NCBI GenBank assembly: GCA_910575265.1
Contig: CAJTEA010000002.1
Span: 187,503 to 251,502 of the forward strand
Direction of reading: 5' to 3'
Length of the DNA: 64,000 bases
Origin: Oscillospiraceae bacterium
Lineage (GTDB): Bacteria; Bacillota; Clostridia; Oscillospirales; Oscillospiraceae
A program made the translations under genes and the position numbers. Within the stretch, counting starts at the first letter, position 1; each line of letters opens with the position of its first letter. This document shows positions 28,183 through 46,060 of the stretch, piece after piece. The notes under the pieces were generated by a model. The model worked only from the letters and a program-made list of their open reading frames with translations, did not search any database and was not told the DNA's origin.

Positions 28183-28830
28183 TTACCTCTGTCCGTAGCT
28201 GGTTTTTACAAACGCCTGCATAAAGGCGATATTCTCCGGGGAGATGGGCTGGAACTGCCCGCCCATGGAGCGGATGACGCTGTAAATCTGGGCGGTGGCC
28301 TCCAGCACGGTGGAGTTGCCAAAGGCCTGTTCCAGGTCCTTGCCCAGGCACACCGCGCCGTGGGATTTCAGCAGGCAGGCCATGGCCCTGTCCCCCAGGG
28401 CCTTGACACACTCGTCCGCCAGTTCCTGGGAGCCGGGCAGGGCGTAGGCTGTGGTGCGCGCTGTGTCGCCCAGCACCTGGGCCGCCTCGTCCAGCAGCAG
28501 TGGGATGTCCTCCCCCATGGCGGAGAAGGCGGTGGAGTAGATGGGGTGGGTGTGAATCACCGCGTTGCACTCCGGACGGGCCCGGTAAATAGCCAGATGC
28601 ATCTCCGTCTCAATGGTGGGCTTGCGCTCCCCCTCCACCCGCGTGCCGTCCAGGCGGACCACCACGATGTCGTCCTCCACCAGCGTCCTGTAGGGCATGC
28701 CGCTGGGGCTGAGGTAGACGTACCCCGTCTCCGGGTCCCGGACAGTGACGTTGCCCCAGGTGCCGATGGTTATGCCCTCGCTGAGCATGCGGATACCGGC
28801 GTCAATGACTTCTCGTTTCCAGTTTTTCAT
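28183..28830 (-). CDS. Class II aldolase (L-fuculose-1-phosphate aldolase-like), last gene of BMC operon
   Basis: Zinc enzyme cleaving a ketose-1-phosphate to DHAP plus an aldehyde. 215 residues: GNVTVRDPE near residue 27 (phosphate site), catalytic Glu in PTIETEMHLAIY, zinc ligands in VIHTHPIY and LLKSHGAVCLG. Length matches FucA. Unlike the aldolase at 34998-35816 it has no long C-terminal extension. It is the second aldolase in this operon, so the two may act on different sugars or at different places (cytosol and lumen). ATG 28830. Confidence 0.88.
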   Translation of the reverse strand: MKNWKREVIDAGIRMLSEGITIGTWGNVTVRDPETGYVYLSPSGMPYRTLVEDDIVVVRLDGTRVEGERKPTIETEMHLAIYRARPECNAVIHTHPIYSTAFSAMGEDIPLLLDEAAQVLGDTARTTAYALPGSQELADECVKALGDRAMACLLKSHGAVCLGKDLEQAFGNSTVLEATAQIYSVIRSMGGQFQPISPENIAFMQAFVKTSYGQR

Positions 28831-28855
28831 TCACAGACCTCCTGATTTGAAATTT

Positions 28856-28890
28856 GGATCATTCCCGCCCCAAAGGGGCGGGAATGATCC
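28856..28890 (-). other. Intercistronic hairpin in BMC operon
   Basis: Perfect 16-bp stem GGATCATTCCCGCCCC / GGGGCGGGAATGATCC with a 3-base loop between the fucU-like and aldolase genes. No T run follows leftward, so it looks like an RNA-stability or processing element rather than a terminator. Confidence 0.6.
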
Positions 28891-28903
28891 AGCTGTTCAA
28901 ACG

Positions 28904-29347
28904 TTACAGACAGCCCTTCTGGATGATAACGCAGGCATAGGGCGCGGTCTCGGTGGTGGACACCACCGCGTAGGCGTTCTGGGCCGCCGTGTAGAAGGGG
29001 AAGCGGTCCATAAAGTCCACCGCGTCCGCCCCCCGGGGGTCGTATCTGGCTACGATGGCCTTGAACTCGTCCCAGACGGTACACTCCAGATCCTTGTGCC
29101 GCTCGGTCTTGTTCATGATGGTCACCGGTTTTTCCACAAAGTCGTCCAGGGGCATAAGCCGCAAAATGGCGTCCAAAATCTCGGTGGCCCGGTGGCCGTC
29201 GCAGCGGATGTTGACGTGCCCCTTGGCCGCCGCGATGGAGGCGGCGGCGAAATTGGAGTCGCCGATGACCAGGGTGTCGCCGTGGCCCATCTCGTGCAGA
29301 ACCTTCAGCAGCTCAGGACTGATGCAGTTGGGGATTCCTCTCAGCAT
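28904..29347 (-). CDS. RbsD/FucU-family sugar mutarotase
   Basis: Interconverts anomers or ring forms of a deoxy or pentose sugar. 147 residues: MLRGIPNCISPELLKVLHEM and GHGDTLVIGDSNF are the family N-terminus with the catalytic His. A C-terminal YAVVSTTETAPYACVIIQKG closes the fold. Closest by eye to FucU. Inside a microcompartment operon that also has fuculose-type aldolases, it probably supplies the correct anomer of a 5-deoxy- or 5-thio-pentose or 6-deoxyhexose for phosphorylation. Confidence 0.9.
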   Translation of the reverse strand: MLRGIPNCISPELLKVLHEMGHGDTLVIGDSNFAAASIAAAKGHVNIRCDGHRATEILDAILRLMPLDDFVEKPVTIMNKTERHKDLECTVWDEFKAIVARYDPRGADAVDFMDRFPFYTAAQNAYAVVSTTETAPYACVIIQKGCL

Positions 29348-29365
29348 AAGTCGTTCCCTTCTTCC

Positions 29366-29674
29366 TTAGTAGTATTCGCCGTGGCGGGTGACGGTCTTTT
29401 GTCCATGGCAGGTAAAGCTGTCGATGATGGCGCAGCAGATCCGGTCGGTCATGACGTTGTTGTCCCCGTGGAGCATGTTGCCCGCGCCGCCGTCGGTGTC
29501 CACCACCACGATGTCCCCCACTCCGGCGCACACGCAGTCGGTGGCGATCTCCCGCTCCCCCTCCGGCTCCATGGTCATGGGGTTGAGATACTCCACCAGC
29601 AGCAGCTTGTAGGGTGGAAGGGCATCATCCTTTACAGTGGACACCAGATTGCCCACCACTCTTCCAATTCGCAT
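29366..29674 (-). CDS. BMC vertex protein, EutN/CcmL family (copy 1)
   Basis: Pentamer capping the vertices of the polyhedral shell. 102 residues beginning MRIGRVVGNLVSTVKDDALP, with the family core (PYKLLLVEYLNP, VGDIVVVDTDGGAGNML). Follows the next EutN gene by 12 bp. A C-terminal GEYY tail extends the usual ~90 residues. Confidence 0.93.
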   Translation of the reverse strand: MRIGRVVGNLVSTVKDDALPPYKLLLVEYLNPMTMEPEGEREIATDCVCAGVGDIVVVDTDGGAGNMLHGDNNVMTDRICCAIIDSFTCHGQKTVTRHGEYY

Positions 29675-29686
29675 TCCCCTACCCCC

Positions 29687-29953
29687 CTACAGCTCTTCGT
29701 TGTACCTGTCGATAAAGCCCACCACCGCCATGTCATAAGGGCCCTGATTGTCCCGGAAAATCCGGGAGGCCTCCTTCTTGGGGATGAGGAACACAAAGTC
29801 CCCCGGCCCGGCCTGGCGGGTGTGGTCGGCGGCGACCACAGTCTCGGCGTCCTTCCCGTTGACGATAAGCTTCACCGTCAGCAGGGGCACCCCCTCCATA
29901 GAGGGGTCCTTCACCGTGGCCACCACTGTACCGGTGATTCGACCGGTAATCAT
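29687..29953 (-). CDS. BMC vertex protein, EutN/CcmL family (copy 2)
   Basis: 88 residues, [20 protein letters not shown], then VPLLTVKLIVNGK and GDFVFLIPKKEASRIF. Standard length. ATG overlaps the stop of the upstream BMC-H gene (TAATG), so translation is coupled. Confidence 0.93.
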   Translation of the reverse strand: MITGRITGTVVATVKDPSMEGVPLLTVKLIVNGKDAETVVAADHTRQAGPGDFVFLIPKKEASRIFRDNQGPYDMAVVGFIDRYNEEL

Positions 29954-30237
29954 TACTCCGCCTTGTCCAGGGAGGGCAGGATGTACTCCACGTCGGAGTG
30001 GGGCCGGGGGATCACATGGGCTCCAAAGAGCTCGCCCACCCGCTTGGCGGCGGCGGCTCCGGCGTCCACGGCGGCCTTAACCGCGCCCACATCGCCCCGC
30101 ACCATAACGGTGACCAGGCCGCTGCCGATCTGGACCTTTCCGATGAGGGATACGTTAGCCGCCTTGACCATGGAGTCCGCCGCCTCGATGGCGCCGATCA
30201 GGCCTCTGGTTTCGATCATTCCAAGAGCTTCTTTCAT
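29953..30237 (-). CDS. BMC-H hexameric shell protein (PduA/CcmK type)
   Basis: Main facet-forming shell protein. 94 residues: [39 protein letters not shown] with the pore loop at IGSGL, and [20 protein letters not shown] 30237 has GGAGGTTATCAAC upstream. It is the only BMC-H in the window, so either it forms all facets or other shell genes lie elsewhere. Confidence 0.95.
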
Positions 30238-30310
30238 GTTGATAACCTCCGTTTATAATTTGAATGGAATATTACTTATTGTTTTCCGCCAGCGGCGGTG
30301 GGTTCACAAA

Positions 30311-30859
30311 TTACTGCATACTCCGCAGCAAATCGGGGTGGGGCGCGGGGATGACCACGCTCTTCCCCATCAGGCCCTGGGTTTCCTCCAAAGCCTCAGC
30401 CGCCTCCACGGCGGCGGTGACCGCCGCCACCTCGCCGGTGAGCAGGACGAAGGACTTTCCGCCCAGTCCCCGGCCCAGCCGCACCTCCAGCAGGCGGATG
30501 TCCGCCGCTTTGGCGGCGGCGTCGGCGGCGTGGATGGCTGCGCACAGGGAGTAGGTCTCCATCACGCCCACCGACTTCAGGTGTTCGGTATCCGTACAGG
30601 CCATAATGGCCGGGGCCACGCTTTTTTCGATGTTGGCGATGACCAGCGAGTCCACCAGAACGCCGGAGGCCGCCTCCCGGCCCGCCTCCACAGCGGCTCG
30701 GACCGCCGCCACCTCGCCGGACACCACAGTGTAGTGCTTTCCGGCGCAGACGCAGCCGGAGGAGACCAGCGTTACCTCCGCCGCCTTGAGCATCGTGTCG
30801 CACACCAGAAATCCGGTGGGGATGCTCATGACCTCGTTCATACCCAGCGCGTCCATCAT
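30311..30859 (-). CDS. BMC-T trimeric shell protein, PduT-like with pore cysteines
   Basis: Tandem BMC-domain protein forming pseudohexameric trimers. 182 residues: domain 1 (residues 1-90) and domain 2 (95-182, VGVMETYSLCAAIHAADAAA). The pore loop of domain 1 reads SSGCVCAGKHYT, with cysteines where PduT coordinates a [4Fe-4S] cluster. Next to a PduS gene this supports electron passage across the shell. Its start overlaps the PduS stop (ATGATG). ATG 30859. Confidence 0.9.
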   Translation of the reverse strand: MMDALGMNEVMSIPTGFLVCDTMLKAAEVTLVSSGCVCAGKHYTVVSGEVAAVRAAVEAGREAASGVLVDSLVIANIEKSVAPAIMACTDTEHLKSVGVMETYSLCAAIHAADAAAKAADIRLLEVRLGRGLGGKSFVLLTGEVAAVTAAVEAAEALEETQGLMGKSVVIPAPHPDLLRSMQ

Positions 30860-32160
30860 GTCACCGTCCTTATCTCAATCCATTCCCCGGTCACCTGGGT
30901 GACAGTCCCGGAAATGGAGGCGTGTATTCTGGCCCCCAGGCCCTCCGGCTCGGCGATGAGCTGGCCCTTCTGGACTGCCATACCGGCTGCCACCACCGGC
31001 TTGTCAGGCCCTCCAACATGCATTTTCAGGGGGGTGCGCACCGCCTGGACCTCCACCGTACCGGCGAAGGGGGCGTCGGCGTCGTATTTTTCCAAATCCA
31101 GCCGGCTGAGCAGCCGTGCCGTGGGCAGGCGCTTGGTGTCAAAGCCCTGGGGCTGGTACTTGACCTCCTTGACGGGCTTAACTCCCTCTTTCCGCATCCG
31201 GTCCTTGTAGGCCTGCATCATTTTGGAGGGGTGCAGGCCGAAGTTACAGGCGTAGTAGGTGCAGATGCCGCAGTCGCAGCAGGACCAGACGCCGTTGGTG
31301 TCCCCGCCGATGAGGCCGCAGTTCCCCGCGGCCAGGGCCCGCATGACCTTGTGGGGTTGTACGTTCAGCCCCATGGCATTCCGGGGGCACATCTGGGTAC
31401 ACATGGAGCACTGGCAGCACACCGCCCGGGCCATCCGGGCTTCTCTTTGGAGATCGCCGTCCTTCTGGCTCAGAATGGCCGCGTCCCGGGGGAAGGCCAG
31501 CAGGCCGCCGGTGGTCTTGGTGACGACTTCCCCCTCCAGGGATTCCACCACCCGGCCCATGAGGGGCCCGCCAATGATGTACACGCAGTCGCCCACAGGG
31601 CCGCCCGCCAGGTCGGGTAAGAGGCTGAGAGGGGTGCCGATAGGAGCGGAAACCGTCATGGGATTTTGCGCCGCGCCGCCGATGGTAAGCACCTTGTCGG
31701 TGACGGGCCGGCCCTGGAGGGCCTCGTACACCTGATACACAGTGGCGGCGTTGGACACCACGCACCCCACGTCCAGAGGCAGGCCCCCGGTGGGCACCAC
31801 CCGACCGGTGACGCAGTGGATCAGGTTCTGCTCGTCTCCCGCCGGGTAGACCGAGGGGGAGAGATACAGCTCAATGGCCTTGCCCTCCACCGCCCGGCGC
31901 AGGGCGTCCACCATGCCGGCGTTGTGCTCCTTCACGGCGATTACCGCCCGCTCCGCCCCCAGGTGGGCCTTGACACGCAGAGCAGCCGCCGCGATCTCCG
32001 GGGCGAAGGTCTCCACGATGTACCGGTCGGTGCGCAGCAGGGGCTCGCACTCAATGGCGTTGACAATAAAGACTTCGGCCTTTGCCTTGTACTTCACATG
32101 GGTGGGAAAGCCCGCGCCGCCAGCCCCCACCACGCCGGCTTGAAAAATCATGTCCAGCAT
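30856..32160 (-). CDS. PduS-like / RnfC-like flavo-iron-sulfur protein
   Basis: 434 residues. The N-terminal half is the RnfC/NuoF-like flavin and NAD(P)H-binding core (GVVGAGGAGFPTHVKYKA; VYIIGGPLMGR). An SLBB-like region follows. Two [4Fe-4S] motifs are CCQCSMCTQMCPRN and CCDCGICTYYACNFG. The C-terminus is a hybrid-motif-like domain (AGMAVQKGQLIAEPE). PduS is a corrin reductase in B12-dependent compartments, but no B12 enzyme is encoded here, so it may oxidise NADH and pass electrons to the PduT-like pore. Ribosome site is weak. Confidence 0.9.
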   Translation of the reverse strand: MLDMIFQAGVVGAGGAGFPTHVKYKAKAEVFIVNAIECEPLLRTDRYIVETFAPEIAAAALRVKAHLGAERAVIAVKEHNAGMVDALRRAVEGKAIELYLSPSVYPAGDEQNLIHCVTGRVVPTGGLPLDVGCVVSNAATVYQVYEALQGRPVTDKVLTIGGAAQNPMTVSAPIGTPLSLLPDLAGGPVGDCVYIIGGPLMGRVVESLEGEVVTKTTGGLLAFPRDAAILSQKDGDLQREARMARAVCCQCSMCTQMCPRNAMGLNVQPHKVMRALAAGNCGLIGGDTNGVWSCCDCGICTYYACNFGLHPSKMMQAYKDRMRKEGVKPVKEVKYQPQGFDTKRLPTARLLSRLDLEKYDADAPFAGTVEVQAVRTPLKMHVGGPDKPVVAAGMAVQKGQLIAEPEGLGARIHASISGTVTQVTGEWIEIRTVT

Positions 32161-32163
32161 AGG

Positions 32164-33630
32164 CTAAATGATCCGGAAGTCGTCGTGGAGGACGCACCGC
32201 CTTGCCCGGGTGAAGGTCCGGGCGGAGGTCAGCCCCTCACCGGTGGGGGTGGCGATGGTGAGGGTGGCGTGGCCCTCGGCCTCCATTCCCAACCCGGAGT
32301 AGGAGGGGGCGTTCTTCACAAAGATGGTGGTGTTCAGGGCCTTGGCCGCCCGGCTCATGTTCCGCACGTTGGTGGAGTGCATGATGGCCGAGTGCCAGCA
32401 GCCGTTCTCCGCCCGTACCGCCTCCCGGATGGCCTCGTCCACGTCGGACACCCGGACGCAGGCCAGCACCGGCATGAGCATTTCTGTCACGACAAAGGGG
32501 TGATGACCGTCCACCTCGCAGATGATGAGCCGGGGCTTGCCGGTGTAGGAGATGCCGCACTGGTCCAGAATATAGGAGGCGTCCCGGCCCACAAACTTCC
32601 GGCTGGGGGTGTATTTGCCGTTATTCTCCACCAGAACGGCGCGCAGCACCTTGTCGATGTCCCCCCCGCGAATCTGGAACGCCCCGTTGCGCTCCAGCTC
32701 GGACAGAAAGCGGTCAAAAACGGTGCTGACACAGAACACCTCTTTCTCCGCCACACACAGGATGTTGTTCTCATAGGACGCCCCGTCCACCGTGCGCTTG
32801 CCCGCCTTGTCCAGCTCGGCGGTCTCATCCACAATCACCGGGGGATTGCCCGGTCCGGCGCAGACCGCCTTCTTGCCGCTGTTCATAGCCACCTTTACAA
32901 TGGCCTCGCCCCCGGTAACGGACAGCAGCCGCACCTTGGGGTGCTTCATCACCGCCTGGGAGTTCTCCAGACTGGGCTCCGCCGGGGTGGTAATGATGCC
33001 GGAGGGCGCTCCATGGGCCACAAGGGCCTCATGGAGGACCCGGATGGCCTCCTGAGAGGACCGCTTCGCCGCCGGGTGGGGGCTGAACACCACCGTGTTT
33101 CCGGCGGAGATCATGCTGATGGCGTTGTTAATCACCGTAGCCGTGGGATTGGTGGAGGGGATCACCGAGGCGATCACCCCAAAGGGGGCGTGTTCCACCA
33201 GGGTAAAGCCGCCGTCGCCGGTATAGGCCTCGGTGGGGATGTCCTCCGGGCCGGGGGTCTTGTCGGCGGCCAGAAGATTCTTGACCACCTTGTCCTCCAC
33301 ATGGCCGTAGCCCGTCTCCTCATGGGCCATTTCCGCCAGATGCCGGGCGTTGTCCCGGGCGGCCTGACGCATAGCCTCCACCAGCTCCCGCCGCTTTTCC
33401 AGGGAAAGCTGGGTGAACCGCTGGAAGGCCGTCCAGGCCGCTTCCACCGCCGCGTTGGCGTCCTGATACATCCAGCCCCCCACGTTAACCGGGGCCTGGG
33501 CGGACGCCGCCGGACGCAGCACCGCCTGGGGCGCCGCCGGGACGCTCTGGACCGGGGCGGGGGAGGTCCCGCCGCCCATCTGGGCGATGGTCAGGCGTAC
33601 AATCTCCTCCACCTGTTCTTTGGAGAGCAT
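32164..33630 (-). CDS. CoA-acylating aldehyde dehydrogenase, PduP/EutE type
   Basis: Oxidises the compartment aldehyde to acyl-CoA with NAD+. 488 residues. Residues 1-18 (LSKEQVEEIVRLTIAQMG) form the amphipathic encapsulation peptide, followed by a Pro/Ala linker to ~residue 55. The core has NPTATVINNAISMI, VSVTGG-type cofactor loop (LLSVTGGEAIV), GPGNPPVIVDE and the catalytic Cys in ENNILCVAEKEVF. ATG overlaps the EutN stop upstream (TAATG). The acyl-CoA is presumably passed to PduL. Confidence 0.95.
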   Translation of the reverse strand: MLSKEQVEEIVRLTIAQMGGGTSPAPVQSVPAAPQAVLRPAASAQAPVNVGGWMYQDANAAVEAAWTAFQRFTQLSLEKRRELVEAMRQAARDNARHLAEMAHEETGYGHVEDKVVKNLLAADKTPGPEDIPTEAYTGDGGFTLVEHAPFGVIASVIPSTNPTATVINNAISMISAGNTVVFSPHPAAKRSSQEAIRVLHEALVAHGAPSGIITTPAEPSLENSQAVMKHPKVRLLSVTGGEAIVKVAMNSGKKAVCAGPGNPPVIVDETAELDKAGKRTVDGASYENNILCVAEKEVFCVSTVFDRFLSELERNGAFQIRGGDIDKVLRAVLVENNGKYTPSRKFVGRDASYILDQCGISYTGKPRLIICEVDGHHPFVVTEMLMPVLACVRVSDVDEAIREAVRAENGCWHSAIMHSTNVRNMSRAAKALNTTIFVKNAPSYSGLGMEAEGHATLTIATPTGEGLTSARTFTRARRCVLHDDFRII

Positions 33631-33941
33631 TACCGCTCACCTCCTTCTTGGTGCTTGTCAAAGACCCGCTTGTGGTCGATGTCGATGTAGTCAATGATGG
33701 CCGTGATGGTGCAGTCCGCCGGCTTGTCCTTGGTGGTCTCGGTCATCCGGGAGGAGGACCCGGCGCACAGCATAACCACCTCGCCCTCCCCCGCCCCCAC
33801 CGCGTCGATGGCGATGATGGGGGAGCCCTTCTCCTCCATGGTGTCCAGGTCGATGTTCCGGACCACCAGCAGCTTCAGGCCGGTCAGCCGGTCGGACTTG
33901 GAGGTGCTCACCACTGAGCCGATTACTCTTGCAATTTGCAT
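33630..33941 (-). CDS. BMC vertex protein, EutN/CcmL family (copy 3)
   Basis: 103 residues, MQIARVIGSVVSTSKSDRLT, then LLVVRNIDLD and GEGEVVMLCAGSSSRM. Starts at ATG 33941 (GAAGG upstream). The frame continues to 34025 but with no ribosome site and across a repeat element. Three different pentamer genes in one operon are typical of BMCs that tune vertex composition. Confidence 0.93.
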   Translation of the reverse strand: MQIARVIGSVVSTSKSDRLTGLKLLVVRNIDLDTMEEKGSPIIAIDAVGAGEGEVVMLCAGSSSRMTETTKDKPADCTITAIIDYIDIDHKRVFDKHQEGGER

Positions 33942-33958
33942 AGCTTCACCTTCCTTAT

Positions 33959-34110: not shown

Positions 34111-34115
34111 ACAGC

Positions 34116-34994
34116 TTAGCGTTTGATTTCAATCTCCAGGCTCATGGCCCGCTCCCGGGCGGCGTCGGTGACAATGCACCGGGGCAGACAGCGGATCACG
34201 GGGATGCCCCGCTTCCAGGCCTCCTCCACATCCCGCTCGGTAACCAAGTCCATGGGCTCAGTTTCCCTGGGCTTTTCCGGGGGCGGGGCGGCTTCCGTTT
34301 TGTGTCCGCCGCAGGAGCCGCCGCACTTGCAGCCTCCGCCGCAGGAACAGCCGGCGCTCCGCTCCGGCTCGGGGCATACCAGCTCCAACAAGTCTCCGTC
34401 AGTAACACACAGGGCGTTGGCCTCGTCGGTGTCCAGATGGACCTCCAGGTCGTGGCCCTCCCCCACCCGGCAGATCACCTGGTCCAGCATACCGCCACGC
34501 TGCCCACTCATGCGCAGGGACACCGCCTGGCCGTCTTTCAGGCCGAAGCAGGCCGCCTGCTGGGGGGACAGGTGCAGGTGCCGGGCCGGTACGATCACCC
34601 CTTGGGGGATGGCCAGCTGGCCCGCCGGACCCCTCAGGGTGCAGCCCGGGGTGCCGTCCACGTCGCCGGACATACGCACCTGGCCGGGAACGCCTAGCTT
34701 CTTGGCCTCGGAGAAGGTCAGCTCCACCTGGGTTTTCCCCCGGACGGGGCCCAGCACCCGGACGTTGGCAAGCTCCCCCCTGGGGCCGGCCACCGCCACC
34801 TTCTCCGCCGCGGCGAACTGTCCCGGCTGGGACAGGGCCTTGCAGGGGTGGAGGGCATAGCCTGGGCCAAAGAGCCGGTCCAGGTCCTCCCGGCTCAGGT
34901 GGACGTGGCGGGCGCTCACCCCGGCGGGGACAAATCTGGTCCCCATGGCGGCCAAGTGGGAGAGCACCGCGTTGCGAATATCCTTCCTCTCCAT
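34116..34994 (-). CDS. pduL: PduL-type phosphotransacylase with Cys-rich linker and C-terminal extension
   Basis: Converts acyl-CoA plus phosphate to acyl-phosphate and CoA, recycling CoA in the lumen. Residues 1-190 hold two PduL beta-barrel halves, with zinc-binding SARHVHLSREDL and PARHLHLSPQQA. Normal PduL ends near 210-220. Here residues ~212-230 are a cysteine-rich run (CSCGGGCKCGGSCGG) and ~245-292 form an extra domain (LVTERDVEEAWKRG, then CLPRCIVTDAARERA). The usual N-terminal encapsulation helix is short (MERKDIRNAVLSHLAAMG). ATG 34994 lies 3 bp after the aldolase stop. Confidence 0.92.
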   Translation of the reverse strand: MERKDIRNAVLSHLAAMGTRFVPAGVSARHVHLSREDLDRLFGPGYALHPCKALSQPGQFAAAEKVAVAGPRGELANVRVLGPVRGKTQVELTFSEAKKLGVPGQVRMSGDVDGTPGCTLRGPAGQLAIPQGVIVPARHLHLSPQQAACFGLKDGQAVSLRMSGQRGGMLDQVICRVGEGHDLEVHLDTDEANALCVTDGDLLELVCPEPERSAGCSCGGGCKCGGSCGGHKTEAAPPPEKPRETEPMDLVTERDVEEAWKRGIPVIRCLPRCIVTDAARERAMSLEIEIKR

Positions 34995-34997
34995 AAA

Positions 34998-35816
34998 CTA
35001 CCGCCCCTGGATGCTGGCCATGACACCGCGCACCACACTGGCCACCTCGCCGTTCTCACAGGGGGTACCGCCGGGGCAGCTCTGCCCCTGTGAACAGGGG
35101 GAGGGCTGTCCGGACGCCGCAAAGCGGCAGACGGGACGTCCGCCGGTGGTGATGCCCAGCCTGGTCCTGGTCTCCACCAGCCGGTCCACCTGCTCGCAGG
35201 ACAGCTCGTTGGCCCGGCCGATGATGTTGCCGGTATACATGGTGACCAGGGCGTAATACTCCAGCGACTCCATACGCATATAGGCCTGCATGGGGCTCAT
35301 GCCCCAGGTCAGCGCCCCATGGTTGGCCAGCAGCACCCCGTTGTGGGTGCGGCAGTAGGGGGCGATGGAGTCGGGGACCTCCTGGGTGCCGGGGGTGGCG
35401 TAGGGGGCCACCGGCACCACGCCCAGCTGGACCACCCCCTCGGGCAGGATGGGCCGGTCCAGGGCGATGCCCGCGATGGCGAAGGAGGTCGCCACCGGCG
35501 GGTGGGCGTGGACGCAGGCGATGAGGTCTGGGTTCTCCTGATACACCCGCAGATGCATCTTCAGCTCGCTGGAGGGCTTCCGGGTCCCCTGGAGCACATG
35601 GCCCTCCAGATCCACCTTAATCAGCATCTCGTCGGTCATATACCCCTTGCTCACCCCGGTGGGGGTGGTCCAGAGGGTGGTGGGAGAGACCTTGCAGGTG
35701 ATGTTTCCGTCGTTGGACACCACATAGTTTTTGGCGTACATCCGCCGCCCCACCTCCAGAATTTCCGCTTTCGCGTCCCGGTCGGAGAGGTAGCGGTCCC
35801 GCTCTTCACCGTACAT
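34998..35816 (-). CDS. BMC-associated class II aldolase with C-terminal encapsulation-type helix
   Basis: Probable signature enzyme of the compartment: retro-aldol cleavage of a ketose-1-phosphate to DHAP plus an aldehyde. 272 residues: SNDGNITCKVS (phosphate site), Glu in SSELKMHLRVY, zinc ligands in CVHAHPPVA and LLANHGALTWG. After residue 215 comes a Ser/Gly/Cys/Pro-rich linker and a short amphipathic C-terminal helix (GEVASVVRGVMASIQG) of the kind that targets enzymes to BMC interiors. Related to aldolases of the fucose/rhamnose (GRM5-like) compartments. ATG 35816. Confidence 0.9.
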   Translation of the reverse strand: MYGEERDRYLSDRDAKAEILEVGRRMYAKNYVVSNDGNITCKVSPTTLWTTPTGVSKGYMTDEMLIKVDLEGHVLQGTRKPSSELKMHLRVYQENPDLIACVHAHPPVATSFAIAGIALDRPILPEGVVQLGVVPVAPYATPGTQEVPDSIAPYCRTHNGVLLANHGALTWGMSPMQAYMRMESLEYYALVTMYTGNIIGRANELSCEQVDRLVETRTRLGITTGGRPVCRFAASGQPSPCSQGQSCPGGTPCENGEVASVVRGVMASIQGR

Positions 35817-38967: not shown

Positions 38968-38993
38968 TGAACCAATAGAAAGGAGGGAGCGGT

Positions 38994-39746
38994 ATGCTTG
39001 CCATCGCCCGGCGCAGCACCATTCTGGAGATACTGCGGGAACAGCAGAGCGTCAATGTCACTCAGCTGGCCGCCGCCCTGGGAGTGGCCACCGAGACCAT
39101 CCGCCGGGACCTGAAGGAGCTGGAGGCCTCCGGGCAGCTCATCCGCACCCACGGCGGGGCCTACATCACCGACGGAGTTCTGAACGACATCAACGTCTCC
39201 GCCCGGTCAGTGATCCGCAAGCAGGAAAAGAAGGAGATCGCCCGCAAGTGCGCCCAGCTCATCAACACCGGGGACTCCATCTTTCTGGACGCCTCCACCA
39301 CCGACTGGTGCGTCGCCCAGGCGCTGCTGGAGAAGAACATCACTGTGGTCACCAACTCCCTGAAGGTGGCGGACATTCTCTCCGCCTCCGCCAGCGTCAA
39401 GCTGATTCTGGCCGGCGGGAACTACGCCCCCCGCACCATGTCCTTCTACGGAGAGCAGACTGTGGAGGACCTGAGCCGGTATTACGCGGACAAGGCATTT
39501 ATCTCCTGCCGCACTGTCCACATGGAGTTCGGGGCTACCGACTCCAACGAGGGGGAGGCCCTGGCCCGGCGGACCATGCTGCGCCGCAGCCACAGCACCT
39601 ATCTGGCGGTGGACCACAGCAAGCTGGACGGCATTTCCTTCCTGAATGTCTGCCCCCTGGAGGACCTGACGGGGATTATCTGCGACCGCCCCCTGTCCCC
39701 TGTATGGCAGAATCACCTGAAAAGCATCGGCGTGGCGTGCTGGTGA
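38994..39746 (+). CDS. DeoR/GlpR-family transcriptional regulator
   Basis: Sugar-phosphate-responsive regulator, probably of the BMC and sugar-import operons that flank it. 250 residues: DeoR HTH (RRSTILEILREQQSVNVTQL, then ATETIRRDLKELEASG), then the DeoRC sensor domain with GDSIFLDASTTDWCVA and FISCRTVHMEFGATDSNEGE, which binds phosphosugars in this family. ATG 38994 has AAAGGAGGGAGCG upstream. Own promoter and terminator. Confidence 0.9.
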   Translation: MLAIARRSTILEILREQQSVNVTQLAAALGVATETIRRDLKELEASGQLIRTHGGAYITDGVLNDINVSARSVIRKQEKKEIARKCAQLINTGDSIFLDASTTDWCVAQALLEKNITVVTNSLKVADILSASASVKLILAGGNYAPRTMSFYGEQTVEDLSRYYADKAFISCRTVHMEFGATDSNEGEALARRTMLRRSHSTYLAVDHSKLDGISFLNVCPLEDLTGIICDRPLSPVWQNHLKSIGVACW

Positions 39747-39757
39747 TATACGGTGGA

Positions 39758-39789: not shown

Positions 39790-39800
39790 ATACCGCGGCT

Positions 39801-40865
39801 TTATTTGCCGATGCCCAGCTCCTCAAAGGCCTTGTCGAAGGGCGCCTTGCACAGGCCTTTTTCGGTGATGATGCCGGTAATCAGGGAGTGATCGGTAACA
39901 TCGAAGGCGGGGTTGCACACCTTCACGCCCTCGGGAGCCATGCGCTCGGAGTACCACATCTCGGTGACCTCCTCGGGGGCGCGCTCCTCGATGGGGATCT
40001 GGTCCCCTGTCTCCAGGGACATGTCGATGGTGGAGCTGGGGGCGCAGACGTAGAAGGGGATGCCGTAGTGCTTGGCCAGAATCGCCACCCCGGAGGTGCC
40101 GATCTTGTTGGCGGCGTCGCCGTTGCGGGTCACCCGGTCGCAGCCCACAAAGACGATGTTCACCAGCCCCCGCTTCATGGTGATGGAGGCCATGTTGTCG
40201 CAGATCAGGGTGGTGTCGATGCCGGCGTTGTGCAGCTCGAAGGCGGTAAGCCGGGCTCCCTGGAGCAGAGGACGGGTTTCGTCGCAGTACACCCGGAAAT
40301 CGGTCCAGCCGTGTTCCTGGGCCACATACATAGGGGCGGTGGCGGTGCCGTATTTGGCGGTGGCCAGGGTACCGGCGTTGCAGTGGGTGAGGATGCCGTC
40401 CCCGTGCTTGAGCAAGCCGAAGCCGATTTCGCCGATGCTCCGGCTGATGGCCACGTCCTCGTCCCGGATGGCCTGGGCCTCGGTGAAGAGGATCTCCTTG
40501 ATCTCCGCCACGGGGCGGGTCAGGCTGGCCCGCATGGTACGCTCCATCCGGTCCAGGGCCCAGAACAGGTTCACCGCCGTGGGACGGGAGGAGGCCAGAT
40601 ACTCCTTCTGCTTCATAAACTCCTCGCAGAACTTCATCTGGTCGGCGGTGTCGATGCGGGAGGCGGTGAGGGCGATGGCGTATCCGGCGCACACGCCGAT
40701 GGCCGGGGCCCCCCGAACCCGCAGGAGCTTGATGGCCTCCCAGATGTCCTCAATTTCGCTGACGTTGAGCACCTTCACGGTGCCGGGCAGCAGAGTCTGG
40801 TCCAAAATTTCCAGACAGGTCCGGTCCGCCGACAGGCGGACGGTATCCAGCTGTAACGCATTCAT
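39801..40865 (-). CDS. mtnA: S-methyl-5-thioribose-1-phosphate isomerase (MtnA)
   Basis: Isomerises 5-methylthioribose-1-phosphate (and 5-deoxyribose-1-phosphate) to the ribulose-1-phosphate. 354 residues: RVRGAPAIGVCAGY, the catalytic Cys in LTHCNAGTLATAKYGTA, and the catalytic Asp in VGCDRVTRNGDAANKIGT, with STIDMSLETGDQIPIEER. Full length. Follows mtnK by 18 bp. It is placed with a transporter and kinase rather than with the aerobic methionine-salvage genes mtnB, mtnC and mtnD, which fits an anaerobic DHAP-shunt role. Confidence 0.95.
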   Translation of the reverse strand: MNALQLDTVRLSADRTCLEILDQTLLPGTVKVLNVSEIEDIWEAIKLLRVRGAPAIGVCAGYAIALTASRIDTADQMKFCEEFMKQKEYLASSRPTAVNLFWALDRMERTMRASLTRPVAEIKEILFTEAQAIRDEDVAISRSIGEIGFGLLKHGDGILTHCNAGTLATAKYGTATAPMYVAQEHGWTDFRVYCDETRPLLQGARLTAFELHNAGIDTTLICDNMASITMKRGLVNIVFVGCDRVTRNGDAANKIGTSGVAILAKHYGIPFYVCAPSSTIDMSLETGDQIPIEERAPEEVTEMWYSERMAPEGVKVCNPAFDVTDHSLITGIITEKGLCKAPFDKAFEELGIGK

Positions 40866-40883
40866 ATACAGAACTCCCTCCTC

Positions 40884-42095
40884 TTACTTCGCCGCTTCCT
40901 GGGCCTTCTTCACCGCGGCCACAAAGTCGGCGCCGGCGCGGAATTTGGTCTGATTCATGATGTAGTCCTTGCCGCACAGGATGTTCAGCCGCTCCACCCA
41001 GGCCCGCTTGGCCTCGTCGGCGATGGTGGTCACGTCCTTCACGTTGGCCATGCCCACCGTGCGGCGGTGCAGCTCGGTGCCGGCGTAGCCGGCGGTGTCA
41101 TTGAGGATGCCCTCCAGATACCACTGCTTGAAGCCGGGGACCTTGGCCATGGGCTCGGTAACCGCCTCGTCAAATTTCTTATTGAACTTGGCGATGAACA
41201 GGTCCATGGTCTCCTCAATGGCTTTCAGGCACCAGTCACAGAAAGCGGTATCCCCGGCGGCCAGGCCGTTGTCATAGGCGAAGATCAGGTTGGCCACCAC
41301 GTTGCCGATGTCGTAGCCCATGGGGGCGTAGGTGGCGAACTCAGGGTCAAAGACCTTGGTGGAGTCCGGCTTGACGAAGATGGAGCCGGTGTGCAGGTCG
41401 CCGTGCATCAGGGCCTGGGCGTCGGTCATAAATTTGAATTTCAGCTTGGAGACCTCCAGGTGCAGGGCCTCGTCCTCATACAGCTCCCGCTTCACGAAGT
41501 CGGCGTTGGGGGGGAACACGTTGTTCTCATGGTTGATGTCGTTGTAGGGCTCCATCAGCACCAGATCCTCGGTGATCTTGCATAGCTCGGGGGAGATAAA
41601 GCTCTTTACCAGGTTCTTTTTCTCCTGATGCTCCATCACCACGTCGCTGGTCATAAGCAGGGTGTTCACCATGAAGGTGGAGATGTCATCCGCGAAGCGG
41701 GGGAAGGTCTTGTGCTCCATCAGGGCGTAGCGCATGAGCTGGTAGTCGGACAGGTCCTCCATGCCGCAGGCGCTCATAACGGTGTCATAGAAGAAAATTT
41801 TGGGCACCATGCCGGGAGCGTACTTGTCGTTGAGCTGGAGGATCTCCGACTCGATGCGGTTGCGGTCGGTGGACACCTTCATATCCTCGGAGATGCGCAG
41901 AGACACGCCGGCGTGCTTGATGATGACCGAGTGGCCCTTCTCGTCCCACACCCGGAACACATAGTTCAGGTTGCCGTCGCCGATCTCCTTGGCCCGCATG
42001 GTGGCCTTGTCCCAGCCGATGTCCGGCAGCTTCTCCAGGGTGTACTCCAGGATGTCGTCGATGCCCATCAGAAAGTACTTGTCAAACTTACCCAT
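40884..42095 (-). CDS. mtnK: S-methyl-5-thioribose kinase (MtnK)
   Basis: Phosphorylates the anomeric oxygen of 5-methylthioribose or 5-deoxyribose. 403 residues of the choline-kinase-like fold: EIGDGNLNYVFRVWDEKG (glycine-rich loop), VIIKHAG (ATP Lys), LMHGDLHTGSIFVK (catalytic loop Asp) and VFDPEFATYAPMGYDIGN (metal Asp, and Glu of the DPE motif). Typical length. Sits between the sugar permease and mtnA, so transport, kinase and isomerase are one operon. Confidence 0.95.
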   Translation of the reverse strand: MGKFDKYFLMGIDDILEYTLEKLPDIGWDKATMRAKEIGDGNLNYVFRVWDEKGHSVIIKHAGVSLRISEDMKVSTDRNRIESEILQLNDKYAPGMVPKIFFYDTVMSACGMEDLSDYQLMRYALMEHKTFPRFADDISTFMVNTLLMTSDVVMEHQEKKNLVKSFISPELCKITEDLVLMEPYNDINHENNVFPPNADFVKRELYEDEALHLEVSKLKFKFMTDAQALMHGDLHTGSIFVKPDSTKVFDPEFATYAPMGYDIGNVVANLIFAYDNGLAAGDTAFCDWCLKAIEETMDLFIAKFNKKFDEAVTEPMAKVPGFKQWYLEGILNDTAGYAGTELHRRTVGMANVKDVTTIADEAKRAWVERLNILCGKDYIMNQTKFRAGADFVAAVKKAQEAAK

Positions 42096-42158
42096 AGTCG
42101 ATTCCTTCCTTCTAAAATGTAGTTAGGGAAGGCCGTCGCTGGCGGCGGCCTTTTTTGC

Positions 42159-43154
42159 TTACTGCTCCTTCTTGCCGGCGTAAGCGGCCATCAGGGCCAG
42201 AGCCAGAACGGCGCCCTTCACGGCGGGCAGGATGTAGTAGGGCACGGCGCAGATGGTCAGGCCGTTCTCCAGGGTGGACACCAGCATGGCGCCCACCAGG
42301 GTGCCCAGGGCGTTGGGCTTCTCCGCGCCGCCCACCGAGCGGCCCACGAACACGGCGGCCAGGGCCTGCATCAGGTAGTTGTCGCAGCAGCCCACCTGGG
42401 CGGAGCTGCCCCGGGCGGCCACCATGATGCCGCCGATGGCGATGAACACGGCGGTAATCATGCCGGCCAGATAGCGGTACTTCTTCACGTTGATACCAGA
42501 CAGCTTGGCGGCCTGCTTATTGCCGCCCATGGCATAGAGGAAGCGGCCGTGCTTGGTGTAGTTCAGGAAGATGAACGCCGCCAGCACGCATGCCAGCATG
42601 ATAATGATAATGTAGGGGGAGCGACCGATGTTGCTGAACGCCTCGCTCAGAGCGGTGCGGGCGGGGGCGGCCCCGGTGTGGGGCACCCGCATGCCGGTGG
42701 ACACCGCGCCGCCGCCGATGTACCACTGACCCAAGCCCTGGTGGACGAACATCAGCGCGCAGGTGGCCAGCATGTCGGGAATCTTGCACACCAGAATCAG
42801 GAACATAGTGAGCTGATACATGATGAGGGTGACCACGATGCACATCACAATGGACATAAACAGGGACAGGCCGTACCACAGGTACATGGACACGAAGACG
42901 TAGGCCGAGCAGCTCGCCAGGGTGCAGGCCGACATGTCGAAGCCGTCGGGGGCCATGGTCACGGTGGCGGCGATGCCGAACACGGTGGTGATGGACATGG
43001 CCAGCAGGATGTTAACCATGTTGCCGGGGGACATGAAGAACGAGCCCTTCAAAGCCGTGAACACCACAAAACAAAGCACCAGCGCGATGACGGCGGCCCA
43101 GTCCAATAGGAAGTGCAGGACCTTTTGGGTACTATTCTTTTCAAGCGTTTGCAT
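42159..43154 (-). CDS. Sugar ABC transporter permease (RbsC-like)
   Basis: 331 residues with about nine hydrophobic segments and the BPD_transp_2 pattern: LLAMSITTVFGIAATVTMAP, DGFDMS, and GGNKQAAKLSGINVKKYRY near residue 220. Carries the pentose or nucleoside-type substrate through the membrane. ATG 43154 has CAGGAGGAACCAGAT upstream; 21 bp after the ATPase gene. Confidence 0.9.
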   Translation of the reverse strand: MQTLEKNSTQKVLHFLLDWAAVIALVLCFVVFTALKGSFFMSPGNMVNILLAMSITTVFGIAATVTMAPDGFDMSACTLASCSAYVFVSMYLWYGLSLFMSIVMCIVVTLIMYQLTMFLILVCKIPDMLATCALMFVHQGLGQWYIGGGAVSTGMRVPHTGAAPARTALSEAFSNIGRSPYIIIIMLACVLAAFIFLNYTKHGRFLYAMGGNKQAAKLSGINVKKYRYLAGMITAVFIAIGGIMVAARGSSAQVGCCDNYLMQALAAVFVGRSVGGAEKPNALGTLVGAMLVSTLENGLTICAVPYYILPAVKGAVLALALMAAYAGKKEQ

Positions 43155-43175
43155 ATCTGGTTCCTCCTGTTGTTT

Positions 43176-44708
43176 TTACGCCTTGACATAGGCGGTGGTG
43201 CCGCCCACCGAGTAGTGCATGATCTCGTCCTCCGAAGTGTCGGCGGTGACCAGCTCAGCCATGATCCTGCCATCGTACATGACATAGACCCGGTCGGTGA
43301 TGGACAGCAGCTCGGAGTTCTCGCAGGATGCGTAGATCACGCCGTTGCCCGCCTTGGCGATGTCGTAAATCAGGCGAAAAATGTCCTGCTTGGCGCCCAC
43401 GTCCACGCCCTTGGTGGGCTCGTCAAAGATGTACACGTCGCAGTCCGCCGCCAGCCACTTGCCCACGGCCACCTTCTGCTGGTTGCCGCCGGACAGGTTG
43501 CGGACCCACTGCCGGATGGAGGGGGTCTTGATGCCCAGCTGCTCCACATATTTTCTGGCGTTGGCGTCGGTTTTAGCCTTGTTGACGAAGGAGGCCACGC
43601 AAAACTTGCCCAGGCTGGCCGCGGAGAGGTTGAAGCTCACATCCTCGTTGACCAGCACGCCCTCCTTCCGCCGCTCCTCAGGCACCAAGGCGATACGCTC
43701 CCGCACCGCGTCGGAGGGGGTCTTGATTTTCAGGCGCTTGCCGTTCAGGATGATCTCGCCGCCGGTCTGCTTATAGCCTCCGAACAGGGTCTTGCAGAAC
43801 TCGCTCTTGCCCGCGCCTACCAGGCCCGCGATGCCGATGATCTCACCCCGCTTCATGTGGATGGACACGCCGTTCACCTTGCCGTCGCCGCCGGCCAGGT
43901 CCTTCACCTCGAAGAACTCCTCGCCCAGCTTGACCTGCTCCTTGGGGAAGTTCTCCTCAAAGGTCCGGCCCAGCATCATCTCCACGATCTCCTTGGAGGT
44001 GGTCTCAGCTGTCACGTCCCGGGTGCCCACGATCTCGCCGTTGCGCATGACGGTGTACTGGTGGCAGATCTGGATGATCTCGTGGATGCGGTGGGAGATG
44101 AAGATAACGCCGATGTTCTCTGTGTCCCGCAGGTGCCGCACGATCCGGAACAGCTCCACCGTCTCGGTATCGCTGAGGGGAGCGGTGGGCTCGTCCAGGA
44201 TAAGGAAGCTGCACTGGCTCTGGATTGCCCGGGCAATGAGCACCATCTGCTTCTGGGCCAGGGACAGGTCCTGGACCAAGGTGCGCGCGTTGATGTTTTT
44301 AATATTCAGCCGGCCCAGGACCTCCCGGGCCTCCTGCCGCATTTTGGACCAGTTGATTACAGGCCGGCCCCTTGTATTCATAACCGTATCGTTGAGCATG
44401 ACGTTTTCCGCCACGGACAGGGTAGGGATCAGGGCCGTGTCCACTTCCTGATACACGATCTGGATGCCCAGCTTCTTGGCCGCGGACGGATCACGGAGCT
44501 CTACAACCTCTCCGTTCAGGAGGACCTCCCCCTGATAGCTGGGGTTCGCGCCGGCCAGCACCTTCATCAGGGTGGACTTGCCGGCTCCGTTCGCGCCCAC
44601 GAGGGCGCGGATTTCTCCGGTGGAGACCTGAAAGTCCACATCGGACAGCGCTTTCACACCGGGAAATTCAATGGAAACTTTTCTGGTTTCAAGTGTGATT
44701 TGATCCAT
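43176..44708 (-). CDS. Sugar ABC transporter ATP-binding protein (RbsA-like, two ABC domains)
   Basis: 510 residues, two ATPase cassettes. Domain 1: GANGAGKSTLMKVLAG, signature LSLAQKQMVLIA, LILDEPTAPLS. Domain 2: GLVGAGKSEFCKTLFGG, signature LSGGNQQKVAVGKWL, IFDEPTKGVDVGAK. The degenerate Walker A of domain 2 (AGKSE) is normal in this family. ATG 44708 with GAGGGAATCCC upstream. Confidence 0.93.
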   Translation of the reverse strand: MDQITLETRKVSIEFPGVKALSDVDFQVSTGEIRALVGANGAGKSTLMKVLAGANPSYQGEVLLNGEVVELRDPSAAKKLGIQIVYQEVDTALIPTLSVAENVMLNDTVMNTRGRPVINWSKMRQEAREVLGRLNIKNINARTLVQDLSLAQKQMVLIARAIQSQCSFLILDEPTAPLSDTETVELFRIVRHLRDTENIGVIFISHRIHEIIQICHQYTVMRNGEIVGTRDVTAETTSKEIVEMMLGRTFEENFPKEQVKLGEEFFEVKDLAGGDGKVNGVSIHMKRGEIIGIAGLVGAGKSEFCKTLFGGYKQTGGEIILNGKRLKIKTPSDAVRERIALVPEERRKEGVLVNEDVSFNLSAASLGKFCVASFVNKAKTDANARKYVEQLGIKTPSIRQWVRNLSGGNQQKVAVGKWLAADCDVYIFDEPTKGVDVGAKQDIFRLIYDIAKAGNGVIYASCENSELLSITDRVYVMYDGRIMAELVTADTSEDEIMHYSVGGTTAYVKA

Positions 44709-44787
44709 GGGATTCCCTCTTTTCTACCGCGAAGGTAATACTTCTAACACAGGAGCTTTGCTCCCCTTTACAAAGACGCACATAAGG

Positions 44788-44815
44788 GAGGGGCCGGAGA
44801 ATACTCCGGCCCCTC
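44788..44815 (-). other. Intercistronic hairpin after the sugar-binding-protein gene
   Basis: Perfect 12-bp stem GAGGGGCCGGAG / CTCCGGCCCCTC with a 4-base loop and no T run leftward. Probably stabilises the binding-protein mRNA segment over the downstream ATPase and permease part. Confidence 0.6.
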
Positions 44816-44854
44816 CTCCGTCTATCGTGCCTGATTCGGTTGTTTCAGCTTAAT

Positions 44855-46060
44855 TTAGTGGATCAGGTCGGCGGGCATCCAGTCGGCCACGGACAGGTAG
44901 CTCAGGTTGCCGTAGGTCTCGTCGGCCACCTCGGACAGGTTCTCCACGGTGGAGTCAGACTTCAGCGCGGAGGCCAGAATGGCGGAGCCGGGGACCTCGA
45001 CCACGTCCACGCCGGACTGGCCGCTGGCGGGATCATAAATCTTGTCATACTCGCCGGCGATCTCCAGCATCAGGATACGCATGCCGATCTCACCGTTCAG
45101 GGTCCAGTCAGTGGTGCCGGCGGCGGTCCAGATGTCGGGGCGGGTAAGCATGTTGGTGACATCGACGGGGTCGATGTCCACACTGCCCATAGGCAGCGCG
45201 TCGCCGTTCTCACCGTTGAAGTTGGCGTTCTCCACGATGGCCTGATACACGCCCTGGCCGTAGCAGTCGTAGTACACCACAACGCCGTCCACGTCGGCCC
45301 GGTTCACGCCCTGGAGGTAGGCGGCGAACACGGTGTTGGCGGAGTCAACGGTGTCCTGGAGGGGCTGGACCTCGCCCACGGTGGTGATCTTGCCGGCCTG
45401 CTCATACTCCTGCCAGCCCACCTCCCGGCGGTCGAAGGGGGAGTTGTAGTTGGGGCCGCGCCAGACCTTGATCAGGCGGACGCCCTCGCCGAAGTTCTTG
45501 ATCATGTCATCAAGCAGAACGGTAACCAGAGAGGCGTCCTGCTGGAACATCTGGGTAACGCCGGGGATCTTCTGATACTCGCCGTCGGCGTAGAACTGGG
45601 TGTCGAAGCAGGTGATCTTCAGGTTGGGGTACTGCTCGGTGATCTCCTTCAGGAAGACGTAGGAGCCATCCTGGTTGCCGTGGGAGACCAGCAGGCCGTC
45701 GTAGCCGCCGGCGGCGCAGGTGCGGATGGTGTCCTGCCACTTGTTGAAGTCGCCGTCGCAGAAGAACACATCGCAGGTGGCGCCCAGGGCCTTGGCCAGG
45801 TCCTGGCAGGAGTTGGCCCACATCTGGAAGATGGTGGCGGAGGGCATAATCATGATATACGCGACCTTCTTGCCGGCCACGGGGCTGGCCGTGGTGTCGC
45901 CGCCGGTCTGGGGGGTGCTCTGGGTGGCGCTGGAACCGCCGGTGGGCTGCTGGGCGCTGCTGCCGCCGCCGGTGCTGCCGTTTCCGCTGTTGCCGCCGCA
46001 GGCAGCCAGAGCGAGCATCATAGACGCGGCAAGGATCATAGACAATACTCTTCTTTTCAT
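44855..46060 (-). CDS. Sugar-binding lipoprotein (Peripla_BP_4 / RbsB-like)
   Basis: Extracellular receptor of the importer. 401 residues: lipoprotein signal MKRRVLS with lipobox LAAC, a Gly/Ser/Thr/Gln linker of about 45 residues, then a two-lobed periplasmic-binding fold (KVAYIMIMPSATIFQMWANS, LLVSHGNQDGSYVF, VDGVVVYYDCYGQG). ATG 46060 follows AAGGAGGACCAAA. First gene of the transporter-mtnK-mtnA operon, which makes a modified ribose (methylthioribose, 5-deoxyribose) or a nucleoside the likely ligand. Confidence 0.88.
   Translation of the reverse strand: MKRRVLSMILAASMMLALAACGGNSGNGSTGGGSSAQQPTGGSSATQSTPQTGGDTTASPVAGKKVAYIMIMPSATIFQMWANSCQDLAKALGATCDVFFCDGDFNKWQDTIRTCAAGGYDGLLVSHGNQDGSYVFLKEITEQYPNLKITCFDTQFYADGEYQKIPGVTQMFQQDASLVTVLLDDMIKNFGEGVRLIKVWRGPNYNSPFDRREVGWQEYEQAGKITTVGEVQPLQDTVDSANTVFAAYLQGVNRADVDGVVVYYDCYGQGVYQAIVENANFNGENGDALPMGSVDIDPVDVTNMLTRPDIWTAAGTTDWTLNGEIGMRILMLEIAGEYDKIYDPASGQSGVDVVEVPGSAILASALKSDSTVENLSEVADETYGNLSYLSVADWMPADLIH

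Follow-up and report, generated by a model that had tools for sequence, protein, structure and literature searches.

What feeds a bacterial microcompartment (BMC) whose genes stand next to those of 5-methylthioribose kinase (MtnK) and 5-methylthioribose-1-phosphate isomerase (MtnA)? The question arises at positions 28183-46060 of a 64,000-nt stretch (the window) of contig CAJTEA010000002.1 from Oscillospiraceae bacterium GCA_910575265.1. Twenty genes lie there: a 14-gene leftward operon, a divergent DeoR gene and a second leftward operon of five. The first operon encodes, in order, the halves of a split transketolase (TktN, TktC), a RuBisCO-like protein (RLP), the class II aldolase ald2B, PduL, EutN1, PduP, PduS, BMC-T, BMC-H, EutN2, EutN3, FucU and a second class II aldolase, ald2A. 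The second encodes the solute-binding lipoprotein (SBP), ATPase and permease of a ribose-type ATP-binding cassette (ABC) importer, followed by MtnK and MtnA. We put at about three in four the probability that the locus encodes a metabolosome running the dihydroxyacetone phosphate (DHAP) shunt on 5-methylthioribose or 5-deoxyribose. An RLP-transketolase branch would be added to it; the substrates and the transketolase reaction are the predicted parts of this reading.

All genes named in an earlier, sequence-only reading of the window were found again at these positions, and its right edge holds, as the SBP begins with an ATG at 46060. By translation, EutN1 and TktC also start with ATG (33941 and 37994); the family searches for these three proteins used gene ends 3-6 bases off. 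Across both operons, 15 of 17 intergenic gaps are shorter than 75 bp. The genome is 96% complete; its three BMC domains all lie at the locus and the only RuBisCO domain found in it is the RLP. Because a separate Oscillibacter metagenome-assembled genome (MAG) repeats the gene order with proteins 72-97% identical (L056), the locus is not an assembly artefact. The position of the DeoR gene is repeated in L056 and in six other loci (L034, L035, L037, L038, L059, L060).

5'-Deoxyadenosine and methylthioadenosine (MTA) arise continually from the chemistry of S-adenosylmethionine (SAM). Both 5-methylthioribose and 5-deoxyribose are excreted by E. coli lacking the DHAP shunt, and a shunt-bearing strain was unable to ferment 5-deoxyribose (PMC10986504). 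A cluster of MtnK, MtnA and an aldolase converts 5-deoxyribose to DHAP and acetaldehyde (PMC6079011). At our locus, the importer would take up 5-methylthioribose and/or 5-deoxyribose, whose anomers FucU may interconvert. In the cytosol, MtnK would then phosphorylate the sugar at position 1 and MtnA would isomerize it to the ketose 1-phosphate, the families being assigned and the substrates predicted. The ketose 1-phosphate would enter the shell, where ald2B would cleave it to DHAP and (methylthio)acetaldehyde. The locus has both a CoA-acylating aldehyde dehydrogenase (PduP) and PduL, which could turn the aldehyde into an acyl-phosphate. With an acetate kinase encoded elsewhere in the genome (525 bits), conversion of the by-products to ATP is plausible. 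No alcohol dehydrogenase is encoded among the 20 genes and a PduS-like protein is, so electrons would probably leave by way of PduS and BMC-T. A second, cytosolic branch, present in this genome and some relatives, would draw on the same ketose 1-phosphate. The RLP would isomerize it to a 1-substituted xylulose 5-phosphate, which is 1-deoxyxylulose 5-phosphate (DXP) in the case of 5-deoxyribose. The split transketolase, altered at its donor site, would consume this product, most likely giving glyceraldehyde 3-phosphate and a two-carbon unit.

MtnK and MtnA both exceed their NCBIfam equivalog cut-offs (Table 1). A pentose-bisphosphate route was dropped, as MtnA scores 188 bits as a ribose-1,5-bisphosphate isomerase, below the cut-off of that model, versus 424 bits as MtnA. 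The two solved structures nearest the SBP are 5ULB, a sugar ABC binder with unstated ligand, and 4RY8, a binder of 5-methylthioribose; this match and homology are what point to the proposed uptake. Close SBP homologues, seen at the level of this one protein, exist in Colidextribacter sp. OB.20, Enterocloster citroniae and Moryella indoligenes. With a dedicated importer, uptake of sugars excreted by others is at least as likely as self-detoxification. The mtnK/mtnA DNA had no match when searched against E. coli genomes.

To see how tightly these genes are tied to the compartment, we used a family sample of 400 genomes. PduP matches were present in 50, and up to 20 kb was read around 20 of them. 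In five of these 20 stretches (L034-L038), MtnK, MtnA or both adjoin the compartment on one contig, the contig edge of L035 leaving just the end of MtnA visible; 14 have neither nearby, and in L051 the contig ends too early. Importer, MtnK, MtnA, ald2B, core enzymes and shell form a single operon in L036, with no RLP, transketolase or ald2A. L034 and L035 also lack RLP and transketolase; L037 and L038 have the RLP and no transketolase in the fetched stretch. The core of the system is thus the ribose-type importer, MtnK, MtnA, ald2B, PduP/PduL/PduS and the shell, with RLP and transketolase optional. MtnK is encoded in 15 of the 400 genomes, in eight with at least 59% identity to that of the window. 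Seven of these eight carry a PduP at least 61% identical to the window's, as do 17 of 400 overall (Fisher p 4.9e-10, kinship ignored); MtnK and PduP sit on different, broken contigs in two of the seven (G677, G488). The seven distant MtnK genes of the sample (44-47% identity) had none of this BMC in the fetched stretches.

The combination also extends beyond the family. An alignment scan with the RLP confirmed 563 places, of which the best 80 were retained; counts of RLP loci refer to these 80. Shell genes lie near the RLP in five (L056, L059, L060, L066, L069). On one Anaerolineaceae (Chloroflexota) contig (L069/L196), the importer, MtnK, MtnA, an aldolase, shell genes, an aldehyde dehydrogenase and TktN-TktC-RLP are spread over about 22 kb. 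MtnA and MtnK are 59% and 58% identical to those of the window, and the regulator is of the SorC type. The class II aldolase, 30% identical to ald2B, is extended at its N terminus by a segment that resembles a 163-residue protein encoded in the shell operon. The acylating acetaldehyde dehydrogenase scores 560 bits (cut-off 620) and bears a C-terminal tail. The shell genes code for EutN, BMC-H, a CcmP-like protein and further EutN proteins (one by search, one by eye). The whole combination is thus found in a second phylum, where regulator and aldolase are of other kinds; this recurrence does not indicate by which route the shell is fed. We had taken L069 for an aldolase-free BMC proving that TktN-TktC-RLP feeds the shell, and withdrew this, as the aldolase, MtnK, MtnA and importer lie upstream on the same contig. 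Alkalispirochaeta alkalica (L066) encodes TktN-TktC-RLP, EutN, an ald2B-like aldolase and MtnK, with BMC-H genes on another contig beside EutC. Two Lachnospiraceae loci (L057, L074) have importer-MtnK-MtnA-TktN-TktC-RLP-FucU and neither aldolase nor shell in the fetched stretch. Their genomes encode elsewhere a BMC with an ald2B-like aldolase tailed by an encapsulation peptide (L163, L164), accompanied in L163 by a glycyl-radical enzyme and its activase.

That mtnK and mtnA go together with the BMC operon, as the sequence-only reading proposed, is thus borne out in relatives (L034-L038, L056), and on the Chloroflexota contig they accompany another BMC. The tie is found in close relatives, but MtnK of the same clade also occurs without a BMC.

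The aldolase proposed as a cargo enzyme is ald2B. Four Clostridia genomes (L181-L184) have compact MtnK-MtnA-aldolase clusters, the gene arrangement studied in PMC6079011, whose aldolases share 60-62% identity with it. In the window and in the nine BMC-linked homologues compared, ald2B bears a linker and a C-terminal amphipathic tail; PduP and PduL have conserved N-terminal targeting-like extensions. No targeting-like addition was seen on RLP, TktN, TktC, MtnA, MtnK, ald2A or FucU in the sequences compared. Hydrophobic moments calculated for the protein termini did not distinguish cargo from the rest and were not used as evidence. For ald2A, DrdA (6BTD) tops the matches in the PDB, with identities of 35% to DrdA and 35% to FucA (4C24). 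A relative 58% identical to it is the aldolase beside importer-MtnK-MtnA in L151, a locus without this BMC.

The RLP and transketolase call for a separate account. In 38 of the 80 loci, the RLP has a split-transketolase gene no more than 3.5 kb away, and in two more such a gene lies farther off; the usual order is TktN-TktC-RLP. MtnA or MtnK is in the fetched stretch of 20. These loci come from Bacillota, Spirochaetota, Chloroflexota, Planctomycetota, Pseudomonadota, Actinomycetota and other phyla. An order-wide RLP search matched 3 of 394 genomes including that of the window; the other two RLPs are distant, with no BMC in the fetched stretches (20 kb and a 4-kb contig). A cupin stands beside the RLP in 25 of the 80 loci, and 40 loci have a transketolase; no locus has both (hypergeometric P 1.1e-10, kinship ignored; a first, stricter clustering counted 11 cupin loci). 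In 13, both are absent and no other partner is present. The RLP tree divides likewise. Its cupin side, including Rhodopseudomonas, has 25 members with a cupin and two with neither partner; its transketolase side has 39 with a transketolase, 18 without and no cupin (SH-aLRT 99). The window RLP, flanked by ald2B and TktC with no adjacent cupin, falls outside the clade of R. palustris RLP1 (DeepYkr RLP1) and in its sister clade (SH-aLRT 99). Both sides share a KDDH and neighboring motifs, unlike MtnW (KDDE). A carboxylase function was dropped, as the metal-binding motif is KDDH and not the KDDE of true RuBisCO.

The RLP1 of R. palustris yields 1-methylthioxylulose 5-phosphate, which the cupin consumes (PMC5893883). 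Most simply, the transketolase would act on a product of this kind too. Its active site was compared with the split transketolase of Carboxydothermus (6YAJ/6YAK). The SGHPG motif has become GGY in 34 and GCY in one of 35 RLP-adjacent TktN proteins (GGYLS in the window). The His of GHPD is gone in all 35, with an EHS or DHS motif nearby in the copies printed. GEDG is replaced by PGG or AGG in 36 of 36 RLP-adjacent TktC proteins (PGG in the window). The catalytic Glu (AEQN) and the THQ His are retained; the LSKGHA His is kept in many copies and is Gln in others, including the window. A canonical split transketolase (L159) has the usual motifs intact. The substituted residues are those we take to bind the donor hydroxyls. 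Their loss would suit a donor that lacks these hydroxyls, for example a 1-deoxy or 1-methylthio ketose, and does not indicate a product.

Tentatively, TktN-TktC-RLP may form an undescribed 5-deoxypentose route of several phyla, a proposal that we hold with less than even confidence. MtnK, MtnA and RLP would lead to 1-deoxy- or 1-methylthio-xylulose 5-phosphate, and the thiamine diphosphate (ThDP) enzyme would split it into glyceraldehyde 3-phosphate and (methylthio)acetaldehyde in a reverse DXS-like reaction. With the methylthio substrate, the ThDP enzyme might even eliminate methanethiol, an acetyl unit remaining, which would salvage methionine without oxygen. If so, the window and the Chloroflexota bacterium would split one sugar phosphate by two routes, this module and the DHAP-shunt aldolase.

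Alternatively, the RLP and transketolase may not be catabolic together with the compartment. The RLP would make DXP for isoprenoids or cofactors, much as in the MTA-isoprenoid shunt, and the transketolase would be an unrelated house enzyme or would use 5-deoxyribose as acceptor, as when 7-deoxysedoheptulose is formed. The RLP1 product named above suits this alternative, as does the S. elongatus transketolase, which takes 5-deoxyribose as acceptor (PMC8102628). The RLP is also present without a transketolase in the fetched stretch at three BMC loci (L037, L038, L059), and neither protein has a targeting tail. Set against these points are the closeness of transketolase and RLP genes, the strict exclusion of the product-consuming cupin, and the donor site altered in every RLP-adjacent copy compared. 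We regard this alternative as less likely than not. The sequence-only reading had counted RLP and transketolase as part of the compartment system. They share its operon here, but they behave as a separate module that is absent from the core, tail-less and also found without an adjoining compartment. This module is the more original and the less certain part of our findings.

Among the TktN-TktC-RLP loci, eight also carry an LsrF-like DeoC/LacD aldolase or a fusion of class II aldolase and short-chain dehydrogenase (L080, L082, L093, L109; L103, L104, L108, L113). Several of the eight have MtnK/MtnA as well.

Several observations weigh against the DHAP-shunt metabolosome. The aldolase ald2B is just 31% identical to DrdA, and its best-scoring model is 3-oxo-tetronate-4-phosphate decarboxylase (117 bits, far under the cut-off of 250). 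Because a similar tail is found in all four of the Clostridia genomes with stand-alone clusters (L181-L184), which have no BMC domain, the tail alone is no proof of encapsulation; it may be ancestral, a relic or older feature of the family. The SBP is only 19% identical to 4RY8, and its better match, 5ULB, has no stated ligand. One of the eight close-MtnK genomes, G554, has importer-MtnK-MtnA-DeoR-ald2A (L151) without this BMC, with other BMC loci in its genome. A class sample held MtnK in 10 of 391 genomes (E <= 1e-90), nine of them without this BMC in the fetched stretch, and no BMC domains were found in the seven of these nine that were tested. In G1083, which has no BMC domain, an MtnK 71% identical to the window's adjoins the same importer. 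The kinase-isomerase-importer set thus exists both with and without the compartment. Most of the relatives are MAGs. Finally, DhaK-DhaL and a ribokinase-like PfkB are kept beside the system in relatives (Table 1), and the model does not explain them.

The last point bears on a second alternative, that the substrate is another pentose, ribose or an unidentified ketose. PfkB, FucU and DhaK-DhaL would then be the true partners, MtnK and MtnA would be retuned, and the compartment would handle glycolaldehyde or another aldehyde. Besides the conserved DhaK-DhaL and the PfkB gene divergent from the importer in the window, the ribose-type importer and the FucU/RbsD mutarotase are in keeping with it. 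A DhaK of at least 70% identity was present in 8 of 8 MtnK-clade genomes versus 0 of 6 others tested; in the window's genome DhaK-DhaL is on another contig. On balance we think this alternative unlikely. It is very improbable that the locus is a fuculose/rhamnulose-phosphate metabolosome, a relative of the PVM or GRM5 type with the MtnK/MtnA operon a neighbor by chance. In its favor, ald2B shares 41-42% identity with the aldolases of L164 and L163 (GRM5-type, with a glycyl-radical enzyme), and a FucU homologue is present. Against it, the annotated genes of both operons include no fuculokinase, rhamnulokinase, glycyl-radical enzyme or activase, as the sequence-only reading had said of the glycyl-radical enzyme, and the link of MtnK/MtnA to this BMC is repeated in relatives, in one case within a single operon.

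The DHAP-shunt metabolosome can also be set beside known systems. Like the DHAP-shunt or drd clusters (MtnK-MtnA-Ald2, DrdK-DrdI-DrdA), which sometimes include sugar transporters (PMC6079011, PMC10986504), the locus clusters kinase, isomerase and class II aldolase; unlike them, its aldolase sits with a shell, PduP and PduL. The word "microcompartment" occurs 0 times in PMC6079011, PMC10986504 and PMC12632272. PVM, PVM-like and GRM5 (fucose/rhamnose) compartments share a class II aldolase and DeoR with it, and GRM5 also PduS (PMC4207490), whereas here MtnK/MtnA and a ribose-type importer take the place of fuculose/rhamnulose kinases and glycyl-radical enzyme. Sugar-phosphate-utilizing (SPU) metabolosomes have an aldolase that splits a sugar phosphate into acetaldehyde and triose phosphate (PMC8217296), as proposed here, and the window PduP shares 61% identity with the PduP encoded at a DeoC-type BMC (L048). 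Unlike SPU loci, ours gave no match to DeoC (PF01791) or RpiB (PF02502) (Pfam on 9 of 20 locus genes, NCBIfam on all 20), and 5-deoxypentose 1-phosphates would replace 2-deoxyribose 5-phosphate. MIC types, with an aldehyde dehydrogenase and incomplete core, likewise have a class II aldolase and no alcohol dehydrogenase; MIC4 is mentioned in a Lachnospiraceae isolate (PMC8156839). The locus may already belong to an uncharacterized MIC or MUF class without a substrate. In Acetobacterium woodii, a methylthioribose kinase gene is directly beside a pdu BMC cluster, much as MtnK is near the BMC here, but that BMC is of the propanediol type and the kinase is regarded as unrelated to its function (PMC7593272, the sole BMC paper found that mentions methylthioribose). 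The MTA-isoprenoid shunt (RLP1 and cupin) shares with the locus an RLP following MtnA and the KDDH and related motifs; unlike it, the locus has a split transketolase in place of the cupin.

The main texts of PMC8217296 and PMC4207490 never use the word "transketolase", nor do those of PMC4207490 and PMC8156839 contain "thioribose". No published description of this compartment or module was found in the openly licensed literature (main texts of the catalogues; one search on the singular "microcompartment"), nor a downstream step for the transketolase-side RLP clade in the literature searched. The branch of RLP and split transketolase is seemingly undescribed. Judged from its genes, the locus is best classed as a metabolosome in which a DHAP shunt would operate. 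If this is true, aldehyde capture and ATP gain would explain how anaerobic gut bacteria could live on SAM-derived waste sugars, an orphan BMC type would gain a substrate, and a large RLP clade a partner.

Table 1. Genes of the locus and kinase genes near it or near related systems (window positions unless a locus is named)
Feature	Position	Strand	Evidence
ald2A, class II aldolase without encapsulation tail	28183..28830	-	top PDB match DrdA 6BTD
FucU/RbsD-type sugar mutarotase	28904..29347	-	PF05025, 134.6 bits; under FucU equivalog cut-off
EutN/CcmL vertex protein (BMC-P) 3	29366..29674	-	family search
EutN/CcmL vertex protein (BMC-P) 2	29687..29953	-	family search
BMC-H shell hexamer	29953..30237	-	PF00936, 99.3 bits
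BMC-T shell protein, PduT-like tandem	30311..30859	-	two BMC domains
PduS/RnfC-like electron-transfer protein	30856..32160	-	family search
PduP/EutE-type CoA-acylating aldehyde dehydrogenase, conserved N-terminal targeting-like helix	32164..33630	-	PRK15398, 634 bits
EutN/CcmL vertex protein (BMC-P) 1	33630..33941	-	family search
PduL phosphotransacylase, conserved N-terminal extension	34116..34994	-	family search
ald2B, class II aldolase, linker and C-terminal amphipathic tail; proposed encapsulated signature enzyme	34998..35816	-	
RuBisCO-like protein, KDDH motif; clade sister to RLP1 clade (5-methylthioribulose-1-phosphate 1,3-isomerase)	35835..36983	-	
TktC, split transketolase C-terminal half, donor-site Asp substituted	36993..37994	-	
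TktN, split transketolase N-terminal half, donor-site His residues substituted	37994..38920	-	
DeoR-family regulator, between the two operons	38994..39746	+	
MtnA, 5-methylthioribose-1-phosphate isomerase	39801..40865	-	TIGR00512, 424 bits, cut-off 279
MtnK, 5-methylthioribose kinase	40884..42095	-	TIGR01767, 394 bits, cut-off 275; 2OLC E 3e-73
Ribose-type sugar ABC permease	42159..43154	-	family search
Ribose/xylose-type sugar ABC ATPase	43176..44708	-	family search
Solute-binding lipoprotein (SBP)	44855..46060	-	nearest solved structures 5ULB, 4RY8
PfkB / DhaK-DhaL near MtnK/MtnA system	window 46541-47464; L036 1044-2666; L195 9891-12468; L057 11604-13536; L192 8497-10125		below equivalog cut-offs

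A plasmid search with the shell end of the locus gave matches in 27 of 72,556 records. Query coverage stays below 80% in every one and is 10% in the first three rows, one of which names EutM. Elsewhere in the genome, on its contig C1 (L188, 1501-3573), a purine nucleoside phosphorylase gene is directly followed by one for a TRZ/ATZ-type amidohydrolase, for which 5'-deoxyadenosine deaminase is among several below-cut-off matches. By this putative route, through nucleoside phosphorylase and amidohydrolase, the cell's own by-products may also enter the pathway.

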